Source of the DNA: a virus
DNA: 42,961 nt
IMG/VR virus record: IMGVR_UViG_3300001349_000012
Coordinates: 25,048 to 68,008 of that record
Reading direction: 5' to 3' (one strand)
The first letter of the stretch is position 1; each line of letters starts with the position of its first letter. The translations under genes were made by a program, and so were the position numbers. Positions 4,568 to 33,732 of the stretch are shown piece by piece. The notes below the pieces were generated by a model, which did no database searches, was not told the origin of the DNA, and saw only the letters and a program-made list of their open reading frames with translations.

Positions 4568-4909
4568 TTAGCTTCTCATGTGAGGGTGTGGATCTTGTTC
4601 GATGGCTTGAGCCATTTTTATTCTAAGTTCTTCTAGCTTGAATATGGCTTTATTAATCTCATTCTGAAGCTCATCTGAAAGTTGCAAGGTGTCGACGCTT
4701 GACGCCGTTAAACCAGCAGCATAATTCATATCATCATTAAATGCACCGAGTCTTTTAACAATCGGCGCGAAATGAGCGTATAACTCATACTCAGTCATTG
4801 GCTCTTTACGGGACTCTCCTGTCTCGCCTTGCCATACGGGTATACCCTCTTGTGTTATCTCAAGCTCTTCTTTGATGATCTGCTTAAGTTGTGTTTTTGT
4901 GATTTTCAT
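4568..4909 (-). CDS. Small N-terminally tagged protein, unknown function
   Basis: A 113-residue protein opening with MKITKTQLKQIIKEEL, the clearest version of the block's tag, with I-K-E at residues 12-14. The start ATG overlaps the upstream TGA (ATGA arrangement). The rest is soluble, helical and ends in PHPHMRS. The DNA around the start closely resembles that around the internal ATG at 5283, indicating recent copying of the tag sequence. A terminator follows the gene. Function is unknown. Confidence 0.85.
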   Translation of the reverse strand: MKITKTQLKQIIKEELEITQEGIPVWQGETGESRKEPMTEYELYAHFAPIVKRLGAFNDDMNYAAGLTASSVDTLQLSDELQNEINKAIFKLEELRIKMAQAIEQDPHPHMRS

Positions 4910-5592
4910 TTTTGATTTCTTGCAGCTTTTTGATTCCTTAAAGTTTTAAGAATGTGCTGTCCTATTCTAGCCTCTCTACCTTTGCCATGTTTTTCATCAA
5001 ATGACATAGCTCTATACGCTTTAACGTGGGCGTTGGTAAGAAATTCAGAAAGATCTTCAGGAGATAGTTCCATGAGCTCTCCAATGGCAGAAACTAAATC
5101 GCTCTTTAACATCTCGAAATCTTTAATAAACTCGTTGATGACTATATCTCTCATCATGTCAGGACCGCCTCCTCCAAAAGCCTCAGGTGGAAAGCTATTT
5201 ATAGTGTTATCTTCAGAGGAATTCTGATATTGATACATACTCTCTCTGATGATTTGTCTTAGTTGTCTTTTTGTGATTTTCATTTTTGATTCCTTAACTG
5301 TGGTTTTTTCGTGAACAAAGCCAAGCTCTGTTAGTTCTATATGTCTATTATAAGTATCTGCTAATGTTGATTTACCCGTTTTTGGGTCATTCATCATGTG
5401 TGGTGTGAAACTTTCGCTTTCTGGAAGATGCGTGTCAGAGACTTCATTTTTGGCGGATATAATGGCCTTTTGAAGAGCGTCAGGGAGATCACTTTGTTGT
5501 TTGCCTTTTAGTTTTCGACTGTTGTCGTACTTTTTAGTAAATGCTGCATCTTCTCTAATCATCTGTTTTAATTTTGATCTAGTTAGTTTCAT
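4906..5592 (-). CDS. Double-tagged protein, apparent fusion of two tag proteins
   Basis: A 228-residue protein starting MKLTRSKLKQMIREDA. At residue 104 a second complete tag occurs, MKITKRQLRQIIRESM, with its own ATG at 5281-5283 and an AAGGAA ribosome site 6 bases before it. The frame therefore looks like two tag-bearing genes joined by loss of a stop, and the downstream 125-residue part may also be made alone. The second part contains FGGGGPDMM and an acidic helical region. The C-terminus has the repeat NQKAARNQK. No enzyme motif is recognised. Confidence 0.8.
   Translation of the reverse strand: MKLTRSKLKQMIREDAAFTKKYDNSRKLKGKQQSDLPDALQKAIISAKNEVSDTHLPESESFTPHMMNDPKTGKSTLADTYNRHIELTELGFVHEKTTVKESKMKITKRQLRQIIRESMYQYQNSSEDNTINSFPPEAFGGGGPDMMRDIVINEFIKDFEMLKSDLVSAIGELMELSPEDLSEFLTNAHVKAYRAMSFDEKHGKGREARIGQHILKTLRNQKAARNQK
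5281..5295 (-). promoter_or_regulatory. Internal ribosome site and ATG inside the 4906-5592 gene
   Basis: On the minus strand AAGGAA (5290-5295) is followed by TCAAAA and ATG (5281-5283), in frame with the larger gene. The codons that follow encode a full copy of the tag. This is better placed than many true starts in the window, so a shorter second product is plausible. Confidence 0.55.
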
Positions 5593-5595
5593 GGT

Positions 5596-7221
5596 TTATA
5601 TTCCTACTATTCTCATCCATCTTTCTTGAAGACTATTTTGTTGTTTAATATGTGCTATGTATATTGGGTTTTCTGAAACTAGCCGTCTAACGTATGGAAA
5701 TTCATCACTTGAAAGTTTTACTAAGGCTTCGAGTGGTGTGAATGGATTTTCTGCTAATGCAGCTCTTGTACGTTGGTTCTTGTCACTTGAAAGTTTTACT
5801 AAGGCTTCGAGTGGTGTGTATGGATTTTTTGCTATTCTTGCTCGTGTGTATGCATCTTTATCGTTTGAAAGCTTTACTAAGACTTCGGGTGGTGTGAGAG
5901 CTTTACTAGCTACTTCCCATCTAATCAATTTAATCTCGTCGCTTGAAAGCTTTACTAAGATTTCAGGTGTTATGTTAGTATTTGTTACTACTGCCCACCT
6001 AACTTGTTCAACCTTGTCGCCTGAAAGTTTCTCTAAGGCTTCGGGTATAGTTGAAGGATTTTTTGCTACTGAAACTCTAATGTATTGTGATCTGTCATTT
6101 GAAAGTTTTAATAATGCTTCGGGTGTAGTTGAAGGATTTTCTGCCACAGCACCTCTAACTGCGTCAGACTCATCATCTGTAAGCTTTGTCAAGACTTCAC
6201 TCGGTGTGGAAGAGTTGCCTGCTACTTCCCATCTGACTCTGCTAGACTTATCATTTGAAAGCGCTACTAAGACTTCAGTCGGTGTGGAAAGATTACTTGC
6301 TACTTCACGTCTTACACGTGCATCATCGTCACTTGAGAGCTTTATTAATACTTCTGTGTCTGGTTCGTCGCTTAAAGCCTGTTTAACGAACTGATCTTTT
6401 GCATCACCTTCCAGACCTTGAATGTATGAGCTTATCTCATCTGGGTCTTTAGACTTTGAAATTGTCTTCATTTGTGTTTTAGCAGGATGTTCGCCACCAA
6501 TTAAATCAGTGTTTGCCTTCATAACATTCATAATAGGTTCAAACTGATCACCTAAAATCTGTGAAAGTCGGTCCGATGTGAGTCCCTTGTTGTTAGCATC
6601 AACTGACAGCCCTCCGGATCTACCATCAATCACAGGCTGTCCTTCCATAAATCCAACAGAAAGCTTTGCAGTTGGATCTTTTCTTGAGTCAACACCTTTT
6701 TTTATAATGTAATATAGAACTATATTTTTATTGTTAAAGACAGTATAAGAAAGAAAAAGGTTCTGTGATTGCGTTGCAGCTGTGCACCATGTTGTGCCTT
6801 TTCCTAATTGACAAGAGCTTTCACGGGTATGTGGCATTGCAACAACCCAATCGCCGAAAGTGCCAAGATAAGTTGTCTCCTCATCTTTCAGGCGTCGAGA
6901 TTCAACTCCTTTTGAGCTACCAAGATCCTCAAGTGCCTGACGAAGAACGCCAGGCGTCTTATAGGAGTAAATGTCAGTAGACATACCTTTTGACTTTAGA
7001 CGCGACTTTGCTGTATCAAATGCCTGAACAACTCCAACAATATCATCAACAGGTTCGTCACCTCTTCGCTTCTGAATCCACTGAAGATATTGTGGGTTTT
7101 TGACATCAGCATCATAGGCGGGCTGTAGCTCTGGAAACTTAAGAACCAGCTTTTCAGCTTGACCTTCAGAAAGCAAGCTCTCTCTAATGATCTGTTTTAG
7201 TTTTGAACGAGTGAGTTTCAT
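5596..7221 (-). CDS. Tagged protein with WCT-motif domain and 26-residue HEAT/LRV-type repeats
   Basis: A 541-residue protein. I chose ATG at 7221, immediately after the previous stop, because it places the tag MKLTRSKLKQIIRESLLSE at the N-terminus; an in-frame upstream ATG at 7332 would lie inside the previous gene. Residues about 22-250 form a globular domain with GKGTTWCTAA followed by FLSYTVF and LYYI strands. Trp-Cys-Thr motifs of this kind occur in uncharacterised phage proteins, but I cannot assign activity. Residues about 292-519 hold eight full and one partial 26-residue repeats of the form LVKLSSDxxxxVRxxVAxNPxTPxEA. These resemble leucine-rich-variant or HEAT repeats, which form superhelical binding surfaces. 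Confidence 0.88.
   Translation of the reverse strand: MKLTRSKLKQIIRESLLSEGQAEKLVLKFPELQPAYDADVKNPQYLQWIQKRRGDEPVDDIVGVVQAFDTAKSRLKSKGMSTDIYSYKTPGVLRQALEDLGSSKGVESRRLKDEETTYLGTFGDWVVAMPHTRESSCQLGKGTTWCTAATQSQNLFLSYTVFNNKNIVLYYIIKKGVDSRKDPTAKLSVGFMEGQPVIDGRSGGLSVDANNKGLTSDRLSQILGDQFEPIMNVMKANTDLIGGEHPAKTQMKTISKSKDPDEISSYIQGLEGDAKDQFVKQALSDEPDTEVLIKLSSDDDARVRREVASNLSTPTEVLVALSNDKSSRVRWEVAGNSSTPSEVLTKLTDDESDAVRGAVAENPSTTPEALLKLSNDRSQYIRVSVAKNPSTIPEALEKLSGDKVEQVRWAVVTNTNITPEILVKLSSDEIKLIRWEVASKALTPPEVLVKLSNDKDAYTRARIAKNPYTPLEALVKLSSDKNQRTRAALAENPFTPLEALVKLSSDEFPYVRRLVSENPIYIAHIKQQNSLQERWMRIVGI
5665..6348 (-). repeat. Tandem 78-bp coding repeats
   Basis: The C-terminal part of the 5596-7221 gene consists of 78-bp units encoding 26-residue repeats. 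The copies at 5705-5740 and 5783-5818 share a 36-base identical core, whereas others have diverged, indicating recent duplication at the 3' end of the gene. Unit length is constant, so the reading frame is kept. Confidence 0.9.
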
Positions 7222-7222
7222 A

Positions 7223-7879
7223 TTATGCGCCGCCGCCGCCGAGCCCTCCGCCGGCTGCGCCGCCTGTTCCACTTCCTGCTGATGGCAGTACTTCTGGGTC
7301 GTTATCGAATCTTGTGTTGAAGTCAAAGTCAAAGTTATTACTTAAGATCTCTTGTGCTTTTTCAACATGACTATCTGTGTAGTTGTCTTCAAGAAACTTA
7401 AGTGCCCTGTTTACGATTGCACTCTCTAGATCTAAAAGATGTTCTGGTCTAGTTGCAAGACGAGCAACTCTTTGTGTGAACTGATCTATGTCAATTAGTG
7501 GCATAGGGTCATCTACAGGTTCGTCTACTTCGACGTCTTCACCGTCGACCATATTGTCGCCGTCAGTATCAGCGCTGTCTTCTTCTTCAGAGGGGGCTTC
7601 ACCGACATCATCAGGAGGAGCATCACCAAGATCTTCAGCACCATCTTCAAAAAGCACTGAAAGTGAGCTTGTGTTTAGCGCCTCGTTTATTTCTTCTACT
7701 TCGTCTTCTAGTTCTGGTTCGTCTCTTAAAGAAATCATCTCATAGTTGAGTAGAAAACTATCTATTTGATCATCTACAGATACTTTAGATAGTCTTGTTG
7801 CAGTTCCTATAGCCGGGGAAGCTGGCTCTTCGAGCTCTTCTTTGATAAGTCTTATTAAGACGTCTTTAGATAAATTCAT
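7223..7879 (-). CDS. Tagged acidic protein with Gly-rich tail
   Basis: A 218-residue protein beginning MNLSKDVLIRLIKEELEE, a variant of the block's tag with I-K-E. Residues about 80-130 are extremely acidic and low in complexity (runs of Asp, Glu and Pro). Residues about 135-190 look globular and helical. The protein ends GTGGAAGGGLGGGGA, probably disordered. The stop is 1 bp before the next start. Such acidic, disordered proteins are common as DNA mimics or packaged internal proteins; neither role is shown here. Confidence 0.82.
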   Translation of the reverse strand: MNLSKDVLIRLIKEELEEPASPAIGTATRLSKVSVDDQIDSFLLNYEMISLRDEPELEDEVEEINEALNTSSLSVLFEDGAEDLGDAPPDDVGEAPSEEEDSADTDGDNMVDGEDVEVDEPVDDPMPLIDIDQFTQRVARLATRPEHLLDLESAIVNRALKFLEDNYTDSHVEKAQEILSNNFDFDFNTRFDNDPEVLPSAGSGTGGAAGGGLGGGGA

Positions 7880-7882
7880 TTT

Positions 7883-8584
7883 TTATTGTCCTAATTCGGC
7901 TTGTTGTGGGTTCATCATGCTGTCGACTTTTGCTAGACGAGCCTCAATGACTTCCCAGTTGAGTTCTTTCATCATAGCGACTACGTAAGTTCTAACATCA
8001 CCAAGATAGTCTCTGTAGTATGCGTGTTGGTGTGTGTCCATTACTATAACAGGTATGAATCCCATTGGGACGTTAGTTGCATTTCCTTCCACGGCTATGT
8101 TCATGTATGAGTTAAGGAACATATTGTATCCTAATACCGCCCAGCCAGACTTTGTAGCTGAAGTGCATGCTATAAAGTCTTTTTGCCAGGCATCAAATGA
8201 TCCGAAGTCTCTTTCTATTCTCATAAAAGAAAGTGAGTTCATTGAGATCTCAGAGTGTATATCACCGACATTAGCAAAGAAAAGTTCATGAAGCCAGACT
8301 GAATTTAGTGAGTCTACTTCGTTCTCTTTTGTCATCTTAAAAACTGAATGTAGTGGGTTTGAGGTTGAACGCTCTAAAGTGTCTAGTTCAGCTGAAGCTC
8401 TGTTGAATACATCTACATACCCTTGGTATATGCCAAAGTGATTTTCTTTGTTTTTAGCAGAAAGCATGTCAGTGTTTAATTTGTATGACTTTTTGCTTGC
8501 AACAAATGATTCATCTAATCTTTGAGCTTTTTTTGTAATCCCTAATGAATCACTTATGATTTTTTTTATTTTATTGTTTTTCAT
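7883..8584 (-). CDS. Fe/Mn superoxide dismutase homologue with N-terminal extension
   Basis: A 233-residue protein related to Fe/Mn superoxide dismutases, which convert superoxide to oxygen and peroxide. The four metal ligands can be placed: His49 (ENHFGIYQGYV), His99 (VWLHELFF), Asp183 and His187 (MDTHQHAYYRDY). FGSFDAWQKDF and SGWAVL are also typical. The gateway Tyr is kept (Tyr56), but the second-shell His after the first ligand is missing, and the usual DxWEH is DTHQH, so metal choice and activity are uncertain. Residues 1-30 precede the dismutase fold and begin MKNNKIKKIISDSLGI, a weak form of the tag on neighbouring proteins. It sits within the tagged-protein block and overlaps the upstream stop by 1 bp. 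Confidence 0.85.
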   Translation of the reverse strand: MKNNKIKKIISDSLGITKKAQRLDESFVASKKSYKLNTDMLSAKNKENHFGIYQGYVDVFNRASAELDTLERSTSNPLHSVFKMTKENEVDSLNSVWLHELFFANVGDIHSEISMNSLSFMRIERDFGSFDAWQKDFIACTSATKSGWAVLGYNMFLNSYMNIAVEGNATNVPMGFIPVIVMDTHQHAYYRDYLGDVRTYVVAMMKELNWEVIEARLAKVDSMMNPQQAELGQ

Positions 8585-8952
8585 TATAGTCCCATCGCCT
8601 CTTTTACAAGAGTTCTTAATTTAGTAAGTGATTCATAGACTTCTTTACTATTACTATCTTTATCACCATGTATCTGTTCATCATCGTCGCTGGAGGCGTC
8701 TTTTGGAAGAATATAATTTTTCTGAAATTCTTCTTTCGTTACGTCGAAAGGTTCTCCTCCCATTGCAGATAGTAGTGTTACGACATCATCACCTGAGCCC
8801 TGGATTGTGAATTTCTCTCTTGTTTCACTGTTCATTACTGTTAACATGTCAGTCAGTTTTTCTAAATCATCGAGCTCGCTTATAGTGTTTTCAACTATAT
8901 TTAAAGTCTCGTTTTTGATAATTTCCATAATGTTGTCTGAACTTAAACGCAT
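8584..8952 (-). CDS. Small acidic protein with tag-like N-terminus
   Basis: A 122-residue protein starting MRLSSDNIMEIIKNETL, which has the spacing and hydrophobic pattern of the tag but lacks the I-x-E tripeptide. The rest is acidic, with a low-complexity stretch near residues 86-100 (DASSDDDEQIHGDKD) and a helical end. GTGGGA precedes the ATG. It directly precedes the dismutase gene, with TAATG coupling. Function is unknown. Confidence 0.75.
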   Translation of the reverse strand: MRLSSDNIMEIIKNETLNIVENTISELDDLEKLTDMLTVMNSETREKFTIQGSGDDVVTLLSAMGGEPFDVTKEEFQKNYILPKDASSDDDEQIHGDKDSNSKEVYESLTKLRTLVKEAMGL

Positions 8953-22627: not shown

Positions 22628-25093
22628 TCAGCCACACTTAGACATTGAACAAGCGGTGCATGATACACAACCTTCTTGGAAGACTAGTGTTCCCTCTGCG
22701 CTACAGTTAGAGCATTTTCTTTCTGATGATTTTGTTCCATCTTGAATGTATCTTTTTAGAGTTCTTGCGATTACTTTTGAGAAACTTGACATGTCAGCAT
22801 CTCTGTCTTTCTGTAGTTGTTCCACCATGTAGTGAACTTGGGCACCATGACGTAGACCAAGTGAAATAACTCTTGTAAAAGAAGCGTAGTTTGGATTATC
22901 AAACAATTTAACAATGTTTTTTACTATTACTTTTTCATTAGGTTCACCAAAGTGAAGATCATAAATGCTATTCATAGACTTTCGTTGGTGCTTTACAATC
23001 TTTCCGGTCTTATATTTTGTCGGTATTGTAACATACTCAGATAATCCGCCTAACAATTCGTAGGGTCTACCATTCATTAATCCAACTAATATTGTCCACT
23101 GTTCTCCTTGTATTGAAGCATGATGAATGTCACATTCGAGCTCAGTTGGTCTCTTTGGAGCATTGTGTGGCTCAAAAGTATTCTCTTCTTTTAGCTTTGA
23201 CTTGTCAATTAATACTCCTGATCTTGAACCTTCACGATATACAGTGAATCCTTTGCAACCAGACTCCCAGGCCGCCTCGTAGATCTCCCTAACATCTTCT
23301 TGAGTTGCATCTTCTGGCAAGTTGCAAGTTGAAGAGATACTGTGGTCAATCCATTTTTGAGCAACAGCTTGAATTTTTACTCTTTGTTTCCAGTCAAGAT
23401 CATTTGCAGTAGATCCCCAATATGGTGAATCTTCAATATTTTTGTTGCCAGTGACATCCATCCACTGCTGAACGCCGTGATGATGAACATCATACTCTAC
23501 CCACTTGTCACCTAACTCATCTATAAAGTTAGCTTCTATGTTTTCTGAATGTGCTATTTTTCTGCGTCGTGTGTATTTGAGCATAAAAGCAGGCTCAATA
23601 CCTGAAGTTGTTTGAGTTAATGTTGAGACAGAACCAGCAGGGGCAGTTGTTGTAAGAGCAATGTTTCTTCGACCATTCTGATTATAGAGTTCAGAAAGCC
23701 CTTCGTCTTCACTAAGAAGTCTGTTTAGATATTGATGACCTCTCTCTCTTTCATGACTGAATGCTGGGAAAGTTCCTCTTTCACCTGCCATTATACATGA
23801 TGAAATATGTGAGTTTATTCCGAGATATTTATAGATTTCTTCAATTGTCTCTACGGACTCATCTGAACCATACTTCTGATTAAGCATTGCGAGTGTATCA
23901 CCTACTGCCGTTACTCCTAACCCTGTCCTACGTCCATTTAATGCTTGTTCTTTAATACCTTCCCATAGCTCTAGTTCAATTCTTTTAACACTTTCGTCTT
24001 CTGGATCGTTTTGTATTTTGTTTATTATCTTGTCTACTTGTTCTATCTCTAAGTCAACAAGATCATCCATAAGTCTTTGTGCTTTTTGGACTGCAGAGGC
24101 AAACTTCGGCCAGTTAAATCTAGCATGTTGTGTAAATGGCTTTTGAACAAACTTGGCGAGATTAACCACCATGAGTCGGCAGCTGTCTTTTGCTGATAGA
24201 ACGATTTCTCCGCAAGGGTTGCTGCTGACTGTCTTAAAACCAAGATCAGCATAGCAGTCTGGAATTGAGTTGTCTATTACGGTGTCCCAGAAAAATATTC
24301 CAGGTTCTGCCATTTTATGAGCTGAGTCTATTATTTTATCCCATATTTCAGTAGCTCTTACTATTTTTGTTATTTCAGGGTTTGCTGATTCTACAGGCCA
24401 CTGAAGTTGGTATTCATCGTCATTCTTTACAGCATTCATAAATTCATTATTTAGTCTAACAGATATGTTTGCTCCGGTCACTTTTGTAAGATCACGCTTT
24501 ATATTAATGAATGTTTCAATCTCAGGATGTCTGCAGTCTACAGAGAGCATTAGCGCACCACGTCTGCCGCCCTGTGCTACCTCTCTTGTAGAGTTAGAGA
24601 ATCGTTCCATAAAGATACCAATCCCATCTGTTGTGCGAGCTGCATTTGATGTTGCGAGACCCTTTGGGCGAATATTAGAGATATCAAATCCTACTCCGCC
24701 TCTGCGTTTCATGATTTGAACTTGCTGTTGATCTGTATGAAGAATTCCAGCATAACTATCAGCAGGACTGTCGATTACAAAACAGTTAGAAAGTGACTGT
24801 ATTTGATATGGGTTCCCTACTCCTGACATGGGTGACCCTTGTGGGACTACCTCCCAAGACGAGAATAGATCATAGATTTCTTTTTCTGAAAGTGGGTTTG
24901 GGTAGTTTGACTCTATCCTGGCGAATTCTTTAGCCATGCGATGGTGCATATCGTCAGGTGTTTCTTCTTGTAAATTTCCTTCTTTGTCAGTAAGGGCATA
25001 CTTTATATGAAAAACTGATGCAGCTAATTCATCGCCATTGAAATATTGTTTTGATTTTTCAACAGCACTTTCAATTGTTATTTCTTTTTTCAT
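22628..25093 (-). CDS. nrdJ: Ribonucleotide reductase, class II (adenosylcobalamin-dependent)
   Basis: An 821-residue reductase that makes deoxynucleotides. Cys104 (LSNCFVID) and the radical-site Cys294 in SNPCGEI are present, as are RRGGVGFDISN, RRGALMLSV, GERGTFPAF and TTTAPAGSVSTL. The length, a C-terminal region resembling the TSCPD domain and a Cys-rich end (CSNCSAEGT, GCVSCTACSMSKCG) indicate class II NrdJ, which uses vitamin B12 instead of a radical subunit. No NrdB-like gene is in the window. The C-terminal Cys cluster probably reduces the active site. AAGGAAG precedes the ATG. Confidence 0.92.
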   Translation of the reverse strand: MKKEITIESAVEKSKQYFNGDELAASVFHIKYALTDKEGNLQEETPDDMHHRMAKEFARIESNYPNPLSEKEIYDLFSSWEVVPQGSPMSGVGNPYQIQSLSNCFVIDSPADSYAGILHTDQQQVQIMKRRGGVGFDISNIRPKGLATSNAARTTDGIGIFMERFSNSTREVAQGGRRGALMLSVDCRHPEIETFINIKRDLTKVTGANISVRLNNEFMNAVKNDDEYQLQWPVESANPEITKIVRATEIWDKIIDSAHKMAEPGIFFWDTVIDNSIPDCYADLGFKTVSSNPCGEIVLSAKDSCRLMVVNLAKFVQKPFTQHARFNWPKFASAVQKAQRLMDDLVDLEIEQVDKIINKIQNDPEDESVKRIELELWEGIKEQALNGRRTGLGVTAVGDTLAMLNQKYGSDESVETIEEIYKYLGINSHISSCIMAGERGTFPAFSHERERGHQYLNRLLSEDEGLSELYNQNGRRNIALTTTAPAGSVSTLTQTTSGIEPAFMLKYTRRRKIAHSENIEANFIDELGDKWVEYDVHHHGVQQWMDVTGNKNIEDSPYWGSTANDLDWKQRVKIQAVAQKWIDHSISSTCNLPEDATQEDVREIYEAAWESGCKGFTVYREGSRSGVLIDKSKLKEENTFEPHNAPKRPTELECDIHHASIQGEQWTILVGLMNGRPYELLGGLSEYVTIPTKYKTGKIVKHQRKSMNSIYDLHFGEPNEKVIVKNIVKLFDNPNYASFTRVISLGLRHGAQVHYMVEQLQKDRDADMSSFSKVIARTLKRYIQDGTKSSERKCSNCSAEGTLVFQEGCVSCTACSMSKCG

Positions 25094-29860: not shown

Positions 29861-31237
29861 TCAATCTGGAAAAGATACCTTTTGCATTTTTTTATTAAAT
29901 TCTTCTTGATTTGCAGGGGAAGCCATCGGTCCGGCGTATCCACCGATAGATCCGACGCCACTTGCTTCTTCTACTTCGTCGGCATATTCAGCCTCGACAA
30001 GGTCTTCATCGATTAGTTCTTCAGACTCTAATAGAATTTGTGATATTAAGCTTCTTATTTTTGATTCAGATATGTCTGTCTCATCATGTAATTCTTCGAA
30101 GCCATAAACAGATGAGTCTATATCATCTATACTTACTGGTATACTGATTAGTCTTTTTAATTTATTTGCTTTTCGTATCAATGCTAATTTTTCAGTAGAT
30201 GACATTTTTTCATACCCATCATCAGACATTTTATATAGTTCATCAAAGTTACTAACAATATCTGACAAGGTTCCAGCAACTTTTACTGAGTCTATTATAG
30301 AACCCCAGAATGGAGTTTCTTCATCAAACTTTTCATCTAATTCGAATATTGCAGATCGTAAAGCGACATTCCCAGCTAATCTGAGTGTCAATTCTTTCCC
30401 CATCTTTGTTTTAGCCCCTGGGACTCTAGAAGCCTGTTTCAACAAGGGATCTAAAGTCTTTTTTATTTTTGCAGCCCACGATGTCAATGTTGCGATATAA
30501 CCTGCGACATCTCCACCCGCAGGAATTATTGAAACAAAAGCTTCTATGACGTCAGATAAATCAGTAACAATATTGTCAATAACATCATCTATTTCATTAA
30601 GATATGACCCTCCTAATCTCTTGTATGAACCTTGTTCATTATATAGACTTATTAATTCTTTTCCAGCCTCTGAATTATTCTGCAATTCTTTTATATTTTT
30701 TAAAACGAATAAAAAATCAGCGGCTCCAGGAATAACTGTGCCAACAAACTGGCGGGCAGTGTCGCCAGCCATATCGACAACGGTATCAAATGCATCGTCG
30801 ACTACATGACCCAAGAAGCCTCTGCTTGTGTTCCCGTCTGATCTCTCACTGACAGTGTTAAGATTTAAAAACTCATTGAACTTTTCGTTTTCTTCTATAA
30901 GTTGATCAATATCTGTTGTTAGTTTTCTTTCTGGCATTGGTTTACGTCCTCTAAGATCAATTGATATTTTTGATCTTAATTTCATATTATATGTATCTTC
31001 TTCGGGTTCTTCTTCGTTTTCAGGGAACCTTACTTGCCACGCATATTTGTCGTCATCACGACCTTTGTTTACACGTCCTAATTTAGAAGAGAACCCACTA
31101 TCAGCAGATTGTGAGTGACCACCTGATGAACCTGTTAAGTTCCAGGGTCTGCGTGCTTGTCCGAGGTTATTGGATGAGTCACCTGGTGAGACCCCGCCTA
31201 CAGAAGGAAGTCCTCTTTCATTTAGTTTCTTAGTCAT
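29861..31237 (-). CDS. Probable virion protein, paralogue A with shared N-terminal module
   Basis: A 458-residue protein. I chose ATG at 31237 because it begins the conserved N-terminus (MTKKLNERGLPSVGGV) shared with the gene at 31417; an in-frame ATG at 31333 lies in non-homologous sequence. The shared module also includes GHSQSADSGFSSKLGR and GRKPMPERKLTTDIDQLIEE. An insert of about 40 residues, flanked by Gly-Arg, is present here and absent in the paralogue. The central part has hydrophobic Gly/Ala/Pro segments (VGTVIPGAADFLFVL, IPAGGDVAGYIATL) that may contact membranes. Near the C-terminus SESKIRSLISQILLES resembles the block tag, followed by an acidic end with GSIGGYAGPMA. Role unknown; an ejected virion protein is inferred. 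Confidence 0.82.
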   Translation of the reverse strand: MTKKLNERGLPSVGGVSPGDSSNNLGQARRPWNLTGSSGGHSQSADSGFSSKLGRVNKGRDDDKYAWQVRFPENEEEPEEDTYNMKLRSKISIDLRGRKPMPERKLTTDIDQLIEENEKFNEFLNLNTVSERSDGNTSRGFLGHVVDDAFDTVVDMAGDTARQFVGTVIPGAADFLFVLKNIKELQNNSEAGKELISLYNEQGSYKRLGGSYLNEIDDVIDNIVTDLSDVIEAFVSIIPAGGDVAGYIATLTSWAAKIKKTLDPLLKQASRVPGAKTKMGKELTLRLAGNVALRSAIFELDEKFDEETPFWGSIIDSVKVAGTLSDIVSNFDELYKMSDDGYEKMSSTEKLALIRKANKLKRLISIPVSIDDIDSSVYGFEELHDETDISESKIRSLISQILLESEELIDEDLVEAEYADEVEEASGVGSIGGYAGPMASPANQEEFNKKMQKVSFPD

Positions 31238-31276
31238 ACATATAAATATTACGAGTAGCGCTCTTTTTCTTGTTTT
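31235..31276 (-). repeat. 42-bp direct repeat, copy 1 (matches 33730-33771)
   Basis: These 42 bases are identical to 33730-33771. In copy 2 the segment is the end of the HD-hydrolase gene plus the start of the 771-residue gene. Here it precedes the paralogous gene but no HD gene is present, so it is a relic of the duplication that made the paralogue pair. Confidence 0.92.
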
Positions 31277-31416
31277 ATTACATGTTTGTGTGCCCACATG
31301 AACTTGCAAAACGAGTTGGTGGTTTAATATCAAATATGCTCACTATACTCCTAAAATAGAACTTTATGATTATTATAAAACACGAGGCTTAAGTTTACAC
31401 TATAGTGCTATTAGTA
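31238..31416. other. Intergenic region between the two paralogues
   Basis: This 179-bp gap has no gene. Its right half carries a TATAAT on the minus strand without a convincing -35 and the 10-bp palindrome CACTATAGTG (31398-31407). Its left end contains a relic of the end of the HD-hydrolase gene (see the direct repeat at 31235-31276). Confidence 0.6.
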
Positions 31417-33732
31417 TTATTTGATTTTTTCTAAATTATCGGCGAATCGAGATACCCAATCCTTCAATGTAAAGTCTTTCGCGCTGCTGCTGGAAGATGT
31501 TTGTAGTACTATGTCAGCGTTCTGGCGTAGGTCTATCGAACCCTTTGTTCCTGCAGGTGAGCCAGGGACCGGTGGCAGTCGTAATGATGAAATCATCGAT
31601 CTTGCTTCTTTTATAAAGTTATTAATTTCTGTAAAATCTGGCATTAACTTTCTTAAGTCAATCATCTCACCGTCTAATAAGACACGAGCTGGAATTTCTG
31701 AACTGTCTTCGAGAGTTTTGCTTAATTTTTTCATGTCATTTATTAAAACAGGTGATTGAGGTGTGGCCCGCGAACTCAATTGATTGACAATATTGTCAAG
31801 CTTTATAAGTACATCTTTACTAGGTGGTAAACCAGACTTTAGAGTCTTTTTTAAATTTGAAACAATTTCGAGAGCAGAGCTAAAATCTATTTTTTTGAGT
31901 TCTTTCACTGGATCTGGTAAGTTGCCCCATTTGGATCCGCCATGATAAGATTTTATTTTCCAATTACCTAAAATTGCTTCTGCGGTATAGTTACGTGCTC
32001 GAAAAGACTTTTCATCAACGACTAATTCGGACACGTCTTTCGGTAAAAAAGGTTTCTTTCTTGTGCCGCTCTGTGCGTAGTGCTTCTTTGTCTGAGCTGA
32101 TGCTGTTCCTGTAAGTTCAGTTGCAGCGTCAGAGGGAGAGAAGTAAGTTAACCTACCCTCGAGGACATAAAAATTCTTGCCCTTCAGTACGCCGCTGCTA
32201 ACTGCATCAGCAAAGTCATCTTTGTGAATTCCAAAAGTAGATATTTCGTTAGATGCTCTAGTTGTAGCACCCGGGTTTGTCGAAAGCCAGTCTAAAAAAC
32301 TAAAATTTGACACGCTTTTTCTTGAAGTTCCTCGGCCAGCGCGATAGGCACCTACAACGTGAACGTACACTACATCTTCCGTGAAGAATTTTTTAGCTGC
32401 AGGATTTCCGTATACTGTCCTCTGAAATTTTGTTTTTGCCTCTCTCCTGGCTTTTTCACCCGCTGAATCTGCTAATCTTCTTGCATATGAAAGATTTGTT
32501 ATAGCGCTGGAGTCCCATCCTTTTGTCATCTCTTGAAGCTCTAGTTCTGCAAGAACCGAATCATAAAGTCTCTTTAAGGGATTTGCTAGGTTTTCAAATC
32601 GCCTTGTCGCTTCTGAAACTGAACTAGCGCAACCAGCTAGCCCTTTCTGCTCTGTCAGTGCACACAACCCAAAAAGGTCCTGATCTTGAGCGAATTTTTT
32701 CATCTGCTTTTCAAGATATTCAAGTGTGCCGTCAAGCTGTTTTCTTAGCGCGCCGAAGACTTTCTCTGATATTTCAGCGTCTATTGATTTTAGATAATTT
32801 ACTAAAGCCTCTGCGGCCTTTTCTATCGCTTCATCTGAGACTTCTCTTCCAATTGCAGTAGCACCTTTTTTAATAATACCTTTTCCTACAATCTTTGCTG
32901 CACCTGCAACTAACCCTAAAACAGGCGCTGAACAAAGCACGCAAAGGGCGCCTAATAAATAGTCGGGTGGATCTTTGATTACAGCAAGGACAGCAGAAGC
33001 TAAATCTACAGGCGTTCCAACACCAGGTACCATACCAATATAAGATCCTACTTCGATAGCCCAATCAGCTATGCTTGGTTCGCCGTAGTCTACTTTAGTA
33101 ATGTTTAGCGTGACATCTTTTGCGCTGTCACGAACGTAGACAGGGACAACATTTCCATCTCTAAGATTTTTTAAGTTAAAATTTTGATCATCGCCGGCGT
33201 TTGTAAGTAAAACGCTATCTTTGTCTGGAAGCTGAAATGATCCTGAAGTAGATATATCTTGTGGTTTTAAATCTGTCTTTGTGATTAAAACAACTGGGTT
33301 TCCTTTTTTAAGAAAACCTAGTGCCACATATTCTTTTCCCTTCCAAGTAATTGTTTCAAGATTACTTTGTTCAGATGAGAGGTATTTTTGTGGATCGTTC
33401 ATGATGTCTGACACTAGAAGCTTAATTGTCAAGCTCGAGGCGGTCTGCTCTTTTAAGATTTCTTTTAAAATAGTCTCTCTAATAACAGACCTTAACTGTG
33501 ATTCAGATGTGTCTGCACTACCTGGACTTTTAATGACAGAGTTAAGACTTAAAAATTCATTAAACCTTTCATTGTCTTCTATAAGTTGATCAATATCTGT
33601 TGTCAGTTTTCTTTCTGGCATTGGTTTGCGTCCTAGTTTAGAAGAGAACCCACTAACAGCAGATTGTGAGTGACCGTTCAATAAGACTCCGCCTACAGAC
33701 GGAAGTCCTCTTTTGTTTAGTTGCTTAGACAT
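31417..33732 (-). CDS. Large virion-like protein, paralogue B with pretoxin-like hydrophobic region
   Basis: A 771-residue protein whose N-terminal ~60 residues match paralogue A (KLNERGLPSVGGV-type start, GHSQSAVSGFSSKLGR, ERKLTTDIDQLIEDNERFNE). At about residues 77-95 SESQLRSVIRETILKEIL resembles the block tag, with I-R-E and L-K-E. Residues about 225-290 are hydrophobic and Gly/Pro-rich (GMVPGVGTPVDLASAVLAV), reminiscent of the pretoxin segment of polymorphic toxins. Residues about 440-600 form a mixed domain with VVYVHVVGAYRAG and AEAILGNWKIKSYHG. The C-terminus is helical. A membrane-active or ejected protein is inferred; no catalytic site is assigned. Confidence 0.82.
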   Translation of the reverse strand: MSKQLNKRGLPSVGGVLLNGHSQSAVSGFSSKLGRKPMPERKLTTDIDQLIEDNERFNEFLSLNSVIKSPGSADTSESQLRSVIRETILKEILKEQTASSLTIKLLVSDIMNDPQKYLSSEQSNLETITWKGKEYVALGFLKKGNPVVLITKTDLKPQDISTSGSFQLPDKDSVLLTNAGDDQNFNLKNLRDGNVVPVYVRDSAKDVTLNITKVDYGEPSIADWAIEVGSYIGMVPGVGTPVDLASAVLAVIKDPPDYLLGALCVLCSAPVLGLVAGAAKIVGKGIIKKGATAIGREVSDEAIEKAAEALVNYLKSIDAEISEKVFGALRKQLDGTLEYLEKQMKKFAQDQDLFGLCALTEQKGLAGCASSVSEATRRFENLANPLKRLYDSVLAELELQEMTKGWDSSAITNLSYARRLADSAGEKARREAKTKFQRTVYGNPAAKKFFTEDVVYVHVVGAYRAGRGTSRKSVSNFSFLDWLSTNPGATTRASNEISTFGIHKDDFADAVSSGVLKGKNFYVLEGRLTYFSPSDAATELTGTASAQTKKHYAQSGTRKKPFLPKDVSELVVDEKSFRARNYTAEAILGNWKIKSYHGGSKWGNLPDPVKELKKIDFSSALEIVSNLKKTLKSGLPPSKDVLIKLDNIVNQLSSRATPQSPVLINDMKKLSKTLEDSSEIPARVLLDGEMIDLRKLMPDFTEINNFIKEARSMISSLRLPPVPGSPAGTKGSIDLRQNADIVLQTSSSSSAKDFTLKDWVSRFADNLEKIK

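Follow-up and report, generated by a model that had tools for sequence, protein, structure and literature searches.

A 233-residue protein encoded by an uncultured large phage has the fold of an iron/manganese superoxide dismutase (SOD), and we think it likely that it is an internal head protein, targeted to the prohead and matured by the prohead protease, that large marine T4-like phages with an S77-type protease recruited from a bacterial Fe/Mn SOD and for which enzymatic activity is optional. The gene lies in a 42,961-nucleotide stretch of the IMG/VR record IMGVR_UViG_3300001349_000012 (positions 25,048 to 68,008), referred to here as the window. Packaging and injection had been raised in the original prediction, and on sequence grounds they appear better supported than it could have known, by a targeting helix and cleavage site, by a gp21-family protease in relatives, and by a fixed place among genes that are often tagged.

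Fold and metal site of the window protein

The open reading frame is intact, on the minus strand and exactly where it had been placed (Table 1); the plus strand of 7883-8584 is full of stops. Pfam Sod_Fe_C (PF02777) matches it with E=3.5e-18, and among the 154 PDB sequences that match, the best is the Aquifex pyrophilus SOD, 1coj (E=1.8e-22). NCBIfam SOD models also match, with scores under their equivalog cut-offs, and PHROGs has no family for the protein. An AlphaFold2 model with 19 family members as input (pLDDT 83.9) superposes on 1coj with a Z score of 24.7 and an rmsd of 1.6 Å over 199 residues, spanning residues 26-226. Judged by homology and predicted structure, the reading frame is a genuine Fe/Mn-SOD-fold protein, as had been proposed. 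The gene appears to be part of an operon, because its start codon shares bases with the upstream stop (ATAATGA) and the downstream gene starts within a few bases of its stop.

Table 1. Positions in the window of the SOD-fold gene, its predicted processing and metal sites, and the adjacent genes.
Feature	Position	Strand	Basis or remark
SOD-fold protein, 233 aa	7883..8584	-	ATG at 8584, stop 7885-7883; Pfam and PDB sequence matches, AlphaFold2 model
Predicted propeptide, residues 1-25: targeting helix MKNNKIKKIISDSLG and linker ending L-D-E	8510..8584	-	helix 2-14 in model; tag score 9.1, above 99.6% of shuffles
L23-D24-E25, predicted prohead-protease site	8510..8518	-	cut before S26 (codon 8509-8507); Glu invariant, 99/99
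Predicted mature SOD-fold domain, residues 26-233	7886..8509	-	fold alignment covers model residues 26-226, Z 24.7 to 1coj
Metal ligand His49	8438..8440	-	alignment
Metal ligand His99	8288..8290	-	alignment
Asn168 at outer-sphere position	8081..8083	-	His in 78/99 phage homologues
Metal ligand Asp183	8036..8038	-	alignment
His185-Gln186 replacing Trp-Glu	8027..8032	-	99 homologues: W 77, H 4; E 61, Q 31
Metal ligand His187	8024..8026	-	alignment
Small tagged protein (MRLSSDNIMEIIKNETLN...), upstream, at C1 position	8584..8952	-	assigned by position; BLAST did not join the window copy to C1
Tagged acidic protein (MNLSKDVLIRLIKEEL...), downstream, family C3	7223..7879	-	C3 at first or second place downstream, 64/72 loci

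All four metal ligands named in the original prediction, three His and one Asp, are retained: H49, H99, D183 and H187 fall on the ligand positions in the alignment with Fe/Mn SODs. The structure prediction that it had suggested as a check yields an SOD fold. The gateway residues Tyr56 and Trp148 are retained as well. The second shell is altered: DTHQH does stand in place of DxWEH, as had been read, and the outer-sphere Gln/His position holds N168, while the Trp and the outer-sphere His are present in most phage relatives. The second-shell His after the first ligand is indeed absent (the residue is Y53), but this is no peculiarity of the phage protein, as among 68 bacterial relatives the column is His in just 29, Leu in 20 and Tyr in 18. 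The window copy also sits on a long branch of the tree (1.54, against a median of 0.26). Because two second-shell residues are lost (N168, H185) despite the four ligands, the dismutase activity of the window copy is uncertain, and the protein may be weakly active, inactive or able only to bind. We file it as an SOD-fold homologue rather than a proven SOD enzyme because it departs from DxWEH and from the outer-sphere Gln/His.

IMG/VR scans, together with the records containing the matches, gave 101 distinct homologues, 99 of them with an N-terminus. Compared with the Fe/Mn SODs, of which 1coj is the closest solved, the phage protein is alike in its whole fold, in the four ligands (window copy) and in the motif D-T-x-x-H-A-Y-Y. 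It differs in carrying a cleavable-looking N-terminal extension, in a first helix one residue shorter than that of 1coj (a trait shared by the phage proteins and the bacterial SODs nearest to them), in N168 and HQ for WE in the window copy, and in the lack of a full metal site in 19 of the 99 phage homologues.

The N-terminal extension and its predicted cleavage site

In the model, residues 1-25 form a helix (2-14) followed by a loose linker; the SOD fold is predicted from residue 26 onwards. The window copy thus carries a putative propeptide that ends at L/I-x-E, the cleavage motif of T4 gp21; short N-terminal capsid targeting sequences have been described as well (PMC9026906). The original prediction had called the tag weak and lacking the I-x-E, a reading that the L-D-E site at residues 23-25 rules out. 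The sequence at residues 23-26 is L-D-E-S, the cleavage Glu (E25) is present in 99 of 99 homologues with an N-terminus and is the sole invariant position of the N-terminal part, the P3 residue is L, I or V in 98 of the 99, and P1' is A, S or N. When all positions are ranked by conservation, the cleavage Glu falls in the top class and the metal ligands only 50th to 78th.

The helix is likewise stronger than had been thought. Scored with a profile built from non-SOD tagged proteins only, the window segment IKKIISDSL reaches 9.1 and outscores 99.6% of shuffled N-termini; this 9-column core was adopted after we had seen the result of an earlier 15-column profile, which missed the window tag since the tag begins one residue too near Met1. 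Across the family the SOD N-termini have a median tag score of 6.8, against -3.3 for shuffles, although the homologues are related to one another and the p-value of this test overstates their independence. An LxE is easily met by chance in one protein, so that the case for a cleavage site rests on its conservation across related, non-independent sequences. In the first 80 residues of the families in the SOD neighbourhood, a position-conserved [LIV]xE[ASGTN] is found in 71 of 72 SODs and in 64% of the best other family (14/22, C12, itself tagged), and together with the invariant Glu this rules out a chance motif. About 32 of the 72 SOD homologues (L030-L110) contain a second [LIV]xE[ASGTN] inside the N-terminal helix, possibly a redundant cleavage site.

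Neighbouring tagged genes and the head-maturation machinery

The gene had been described as lying among tagged proteins, and this proves to be a lasting arrangement: in the window a tagged gene stands upstream and a tagged C3 gene downstream, and the order C1-SOD-C3 is conserved across loci, with the small, mostly tagged C1 family directly upstream in 70 of 72 and, in 64 of 72, the acidic, often tagged C3 family at the first or second place downstream.

Several other genes in the window, all on the minus strand, carry tags or lie in groups of their own. At 5596-7332 a tagged protein with an internal start (MKLTRSKLKQIIRESLLSEG...) contains leucine-rich-variant/HEAT-like repeats (PF01816, E=2.6e-33) and is possibly a second head-packaged protein with a recognisable fold. 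The reading frame at 4906-5592 holds two tag copies (MKLTRSKLKQMIRED... and MKITKRQLRQIIRES...), which gives it the look of a fusion between two tagged genes. The large proteins at 29861-31333 and 31417-33732 have tag-like segments away from the N-terminus (ESQLRSVIRETILKE and ESKIRSLISQILLES), perhaps regions of internal targeting or cleavage. Between 14328 and 19766, genes for a glutamine synthetase, a GlmS-like aminotransferase and a formamidopyrimidine-DNA glycosylase (oxidised-base repair) are grouped together.

A protease that could make the predicted cut is found in relatives. Peptidase_S77, the T4 gp21 family, was found in 17 of the 20 long records, in all of a further 10 (27 of 30 altogether) and in 0 of 14 control genomes. 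No protease was detected in the window's own 68-kb fragment, and the protease and capsid evidence comes from relatives. Around the S77 gene lies a head cluster consisting of a terminase-like and a portal-like gene (named by position and length), the protease, a tagged 146-residue protein (MAKVTKSMLKGIVKECLVEILSE-G) and a gp23-like capsid protein (named by its match to annotated phage capsid proteins). In the major capsid proteins of 17 records an L-[RK]-E lies some 60 residues into the chain, a gp23-like cut position; T4 gp23 loses a 65-residue propeptide (PMC9026906). With the protease as an independent marker we also found five records of at least 100 kb without recourse to the SOD, and three of these carry it, including both that exceed 185 kb; SOD was absent from the smaller fragments in this comparison. 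This is only suggestive of SOD being a core gene of the phage lineage.

Judged by sequence, the internal head proteins of T4 (IPI-III and Alt, which have a capsid targeting sequence and are cut by gp21) offer the nearest functional model. They resemble the phage SODs in a short N-terminal helical extension ending at L/I-x-E, and the resemblance extends to the tagged neighbours and, in relatives, to the gp21-family protease and the LxE cut of the capsid protein. They differ in that they are not SOD folds and that their propeptide is about 10 residues long, against 21-63 here, and packaging in the present case is predicted from sequence. By analogy, the N-terminal helix would act like a T4 capsid targeting sequence and draw the protein into the prohead core, where a gp21-type S77 protease would, if family rules apply, cut after L-D-E at residue 25 (LDE↓S) and free an SOD-fold protein of normal length inside the head. 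The mature protein would then stay in the virion and most likely be ejected with the DNA into the host.

It is also conceivable, if improbable in our estimation, that the protein is an ordinary auxiliary metabolic SOD that is made in the infected cell, is never packaged and has an incidental N-terminal extension. Untagged phage SODs do exist: the Pseudomonas jumbo phages PA5oct and MIJ3 encode a short SodB, likewise of the Fe/Mn type, between ClpS and FtsH genes. The window protein is separate from that group in sequence and setting, aligning over 55% of the query, at about 23% identity, with a protein of 182 residues that lacks a comparable extension and belongs to a Clp/FtsH gene cluster. 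An unpackaged metabolic enzyme is hard to square with a conserved [LIV]xE site exactly where the SOD fold starts, with a tag helix common to the neighbouring proteins and a conserved place among tagged genes, or with retention of the protein despite ligand loss.

Ligand loss, possible functions and origin

When bacterial relatives are included in the tree, the phage proteins group together in a single clade (100/100 support). The ligand set HHDH is found in 68 of 68 bacterial relatives, which were picked by similarity and serve as a contrast rather than a census. In the phage family the ligands are intact in 80 of 99 homologues, favouring metal binding in most lineages, and one to four are lost in the other 19 (RRDG in five, NSSR and RQDG in three each, QFSE in two, and LREG, NTSR, QRDG, HNDN, HHDT and LTRI in one each). 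The best tree places five loss events (five to six over bootstrap trees), and forcing all ligand-less rows into one clade costs 52.7 log units; a single origin is thereby disfavoured, though with an AU p of 0.057 it is not formally rejected, and ligands have likely been lost more than once.

The ligand-less copies are not in decay. Between ligand-less pairs pN is 0.06-0.13 in seven of eight and 0.26 in the most diverged, with synonymous sites saturated, so these copies are maintained under purifying selection and pseudogene decay is ruled out. Nor does an intact paralogue cover for them in the long records examined: the four ligand-deficient records among the 20 (G006, G011, G012 and G017) have one SOD homologue each. 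Sod_Fe_C matches every one of the 20 proteins in a mixed alignment that includes 13 ligand-less members, and the model of one ligand-less protein (L083) is still an SOD fold (Z 24.3) that starts at residue 27, directly after its own cleavage Glu26. The cleavage site is kept in all 19 ligand-deficient homologues. Since both the protein and its cleavage site persist where the metal site has gone, the constant function is probably that of the folded protein itself, structural or binding, exerted in the head or inside the cell after entry; dismutation would be an optional or ancestral activity.

Within the packaging scenario, one version, possible but in our view on the doubtful side, is an active antioxidant: an Fe- or Mn-loaded SOD from the virion would remove superoxide at entry or protect the DNA in the particle. 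Consistent with this are the ligands kept by the window copy and by 80 of 99 homologues, the bacterial relatives with theirs uniformly intact, Tyr56 and Trp148 in the window copy, and the formamidopyrimidine-DNA glycosylase for oxidised bases that the same phage encodes. Against it stand the 19 homologues that have lost ligands with no second SOD in the same record where this was tested, and a window copy that lacks the outer-sphere His and the active-site Trp and sits on a long branch. The original suggestion that the protein blunts oxidative stress thus fails as a general function, since 19 of 99 homologues lack full ligands and the protein is nonetheless maintained, but it could still hold for ligand-bearing members.

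A second version, which we regard as unlikely, is a non-enzymatic decoy or host-interaction effector delivered from the virion, its catalysis lost as unneeded, in a logic like that of SOD-like proteins in poxvirus virions. Repeated ligand loss under purifying selection would fit, as would near-invariant positions, such as D108, S111, Q134, C140 and M204, that are phage-specific and rare or absent in bacterial SODs. But these positions might just as well act in oligomerisation or head packing, and most members keep the metal site. The earlier alternative of a binding protein rather than an enzyme gains support for the ligand-less lineages, where ligands went and the protein stayed; for the window copy, with its four ligands but N168 and H185, it may or may not hold.

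The poxvirus proteins are the closest conceptual precedent for a packaged, internal-head SOD homologue of the kind we favour. Vaccinia A45R and its leporipoxvirus homologues are SOD-like virion proteins that can be catalytically dead (PMC9282662). The likeness is one of working principle only, as they have a Cu-Zn SOD fold, belong to a eukaryotic virus and share no descent with the phage protein. Our search of the open literature turned up no account of an SOD in a phage head. More broadly, we tentatively suggest that large marine phages of a widespread lineage converted a bacterial SOD into an ejection protein that is packaged in the head and matured by protease, that its conserved role is something other than dismutation, and that its metal site was discarded repeatedly, which would be a prokaryotic-virus parallel to the dead SOD homologues of poxvirus particles. 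The family allows the use of an enzyme fold as phage head cargo to be tested in a concrete case, with natural catalytic-site knock-outs in several lineages, and pairing ligand-bearing with ligand-less relatives gives a direct route to the role of an injected SOD-fold protein. The combination of helix and LxE also provides a recognition rule for other packaged proteins of uncultured large phages.

Sequenced phage isolates contain no close relative of the SOD-fold protein, and all homologues but one are on virus contigs, of up to 340 kb. The exception (L110, G032:C5) comes from a Methylococcaceae MAG (TMED69), where a 305-kb contig carries both a tagged SOD and an S77 prohead protease; because of the protease the contig is probably a misbinned large phage, and it is a host hint at most. 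Three SODs from bacterial MAGs near the phage clade (L111, L114 and L118) have the same one-residue-shorter first helix, pointing to a putative donor SOD subfamily.
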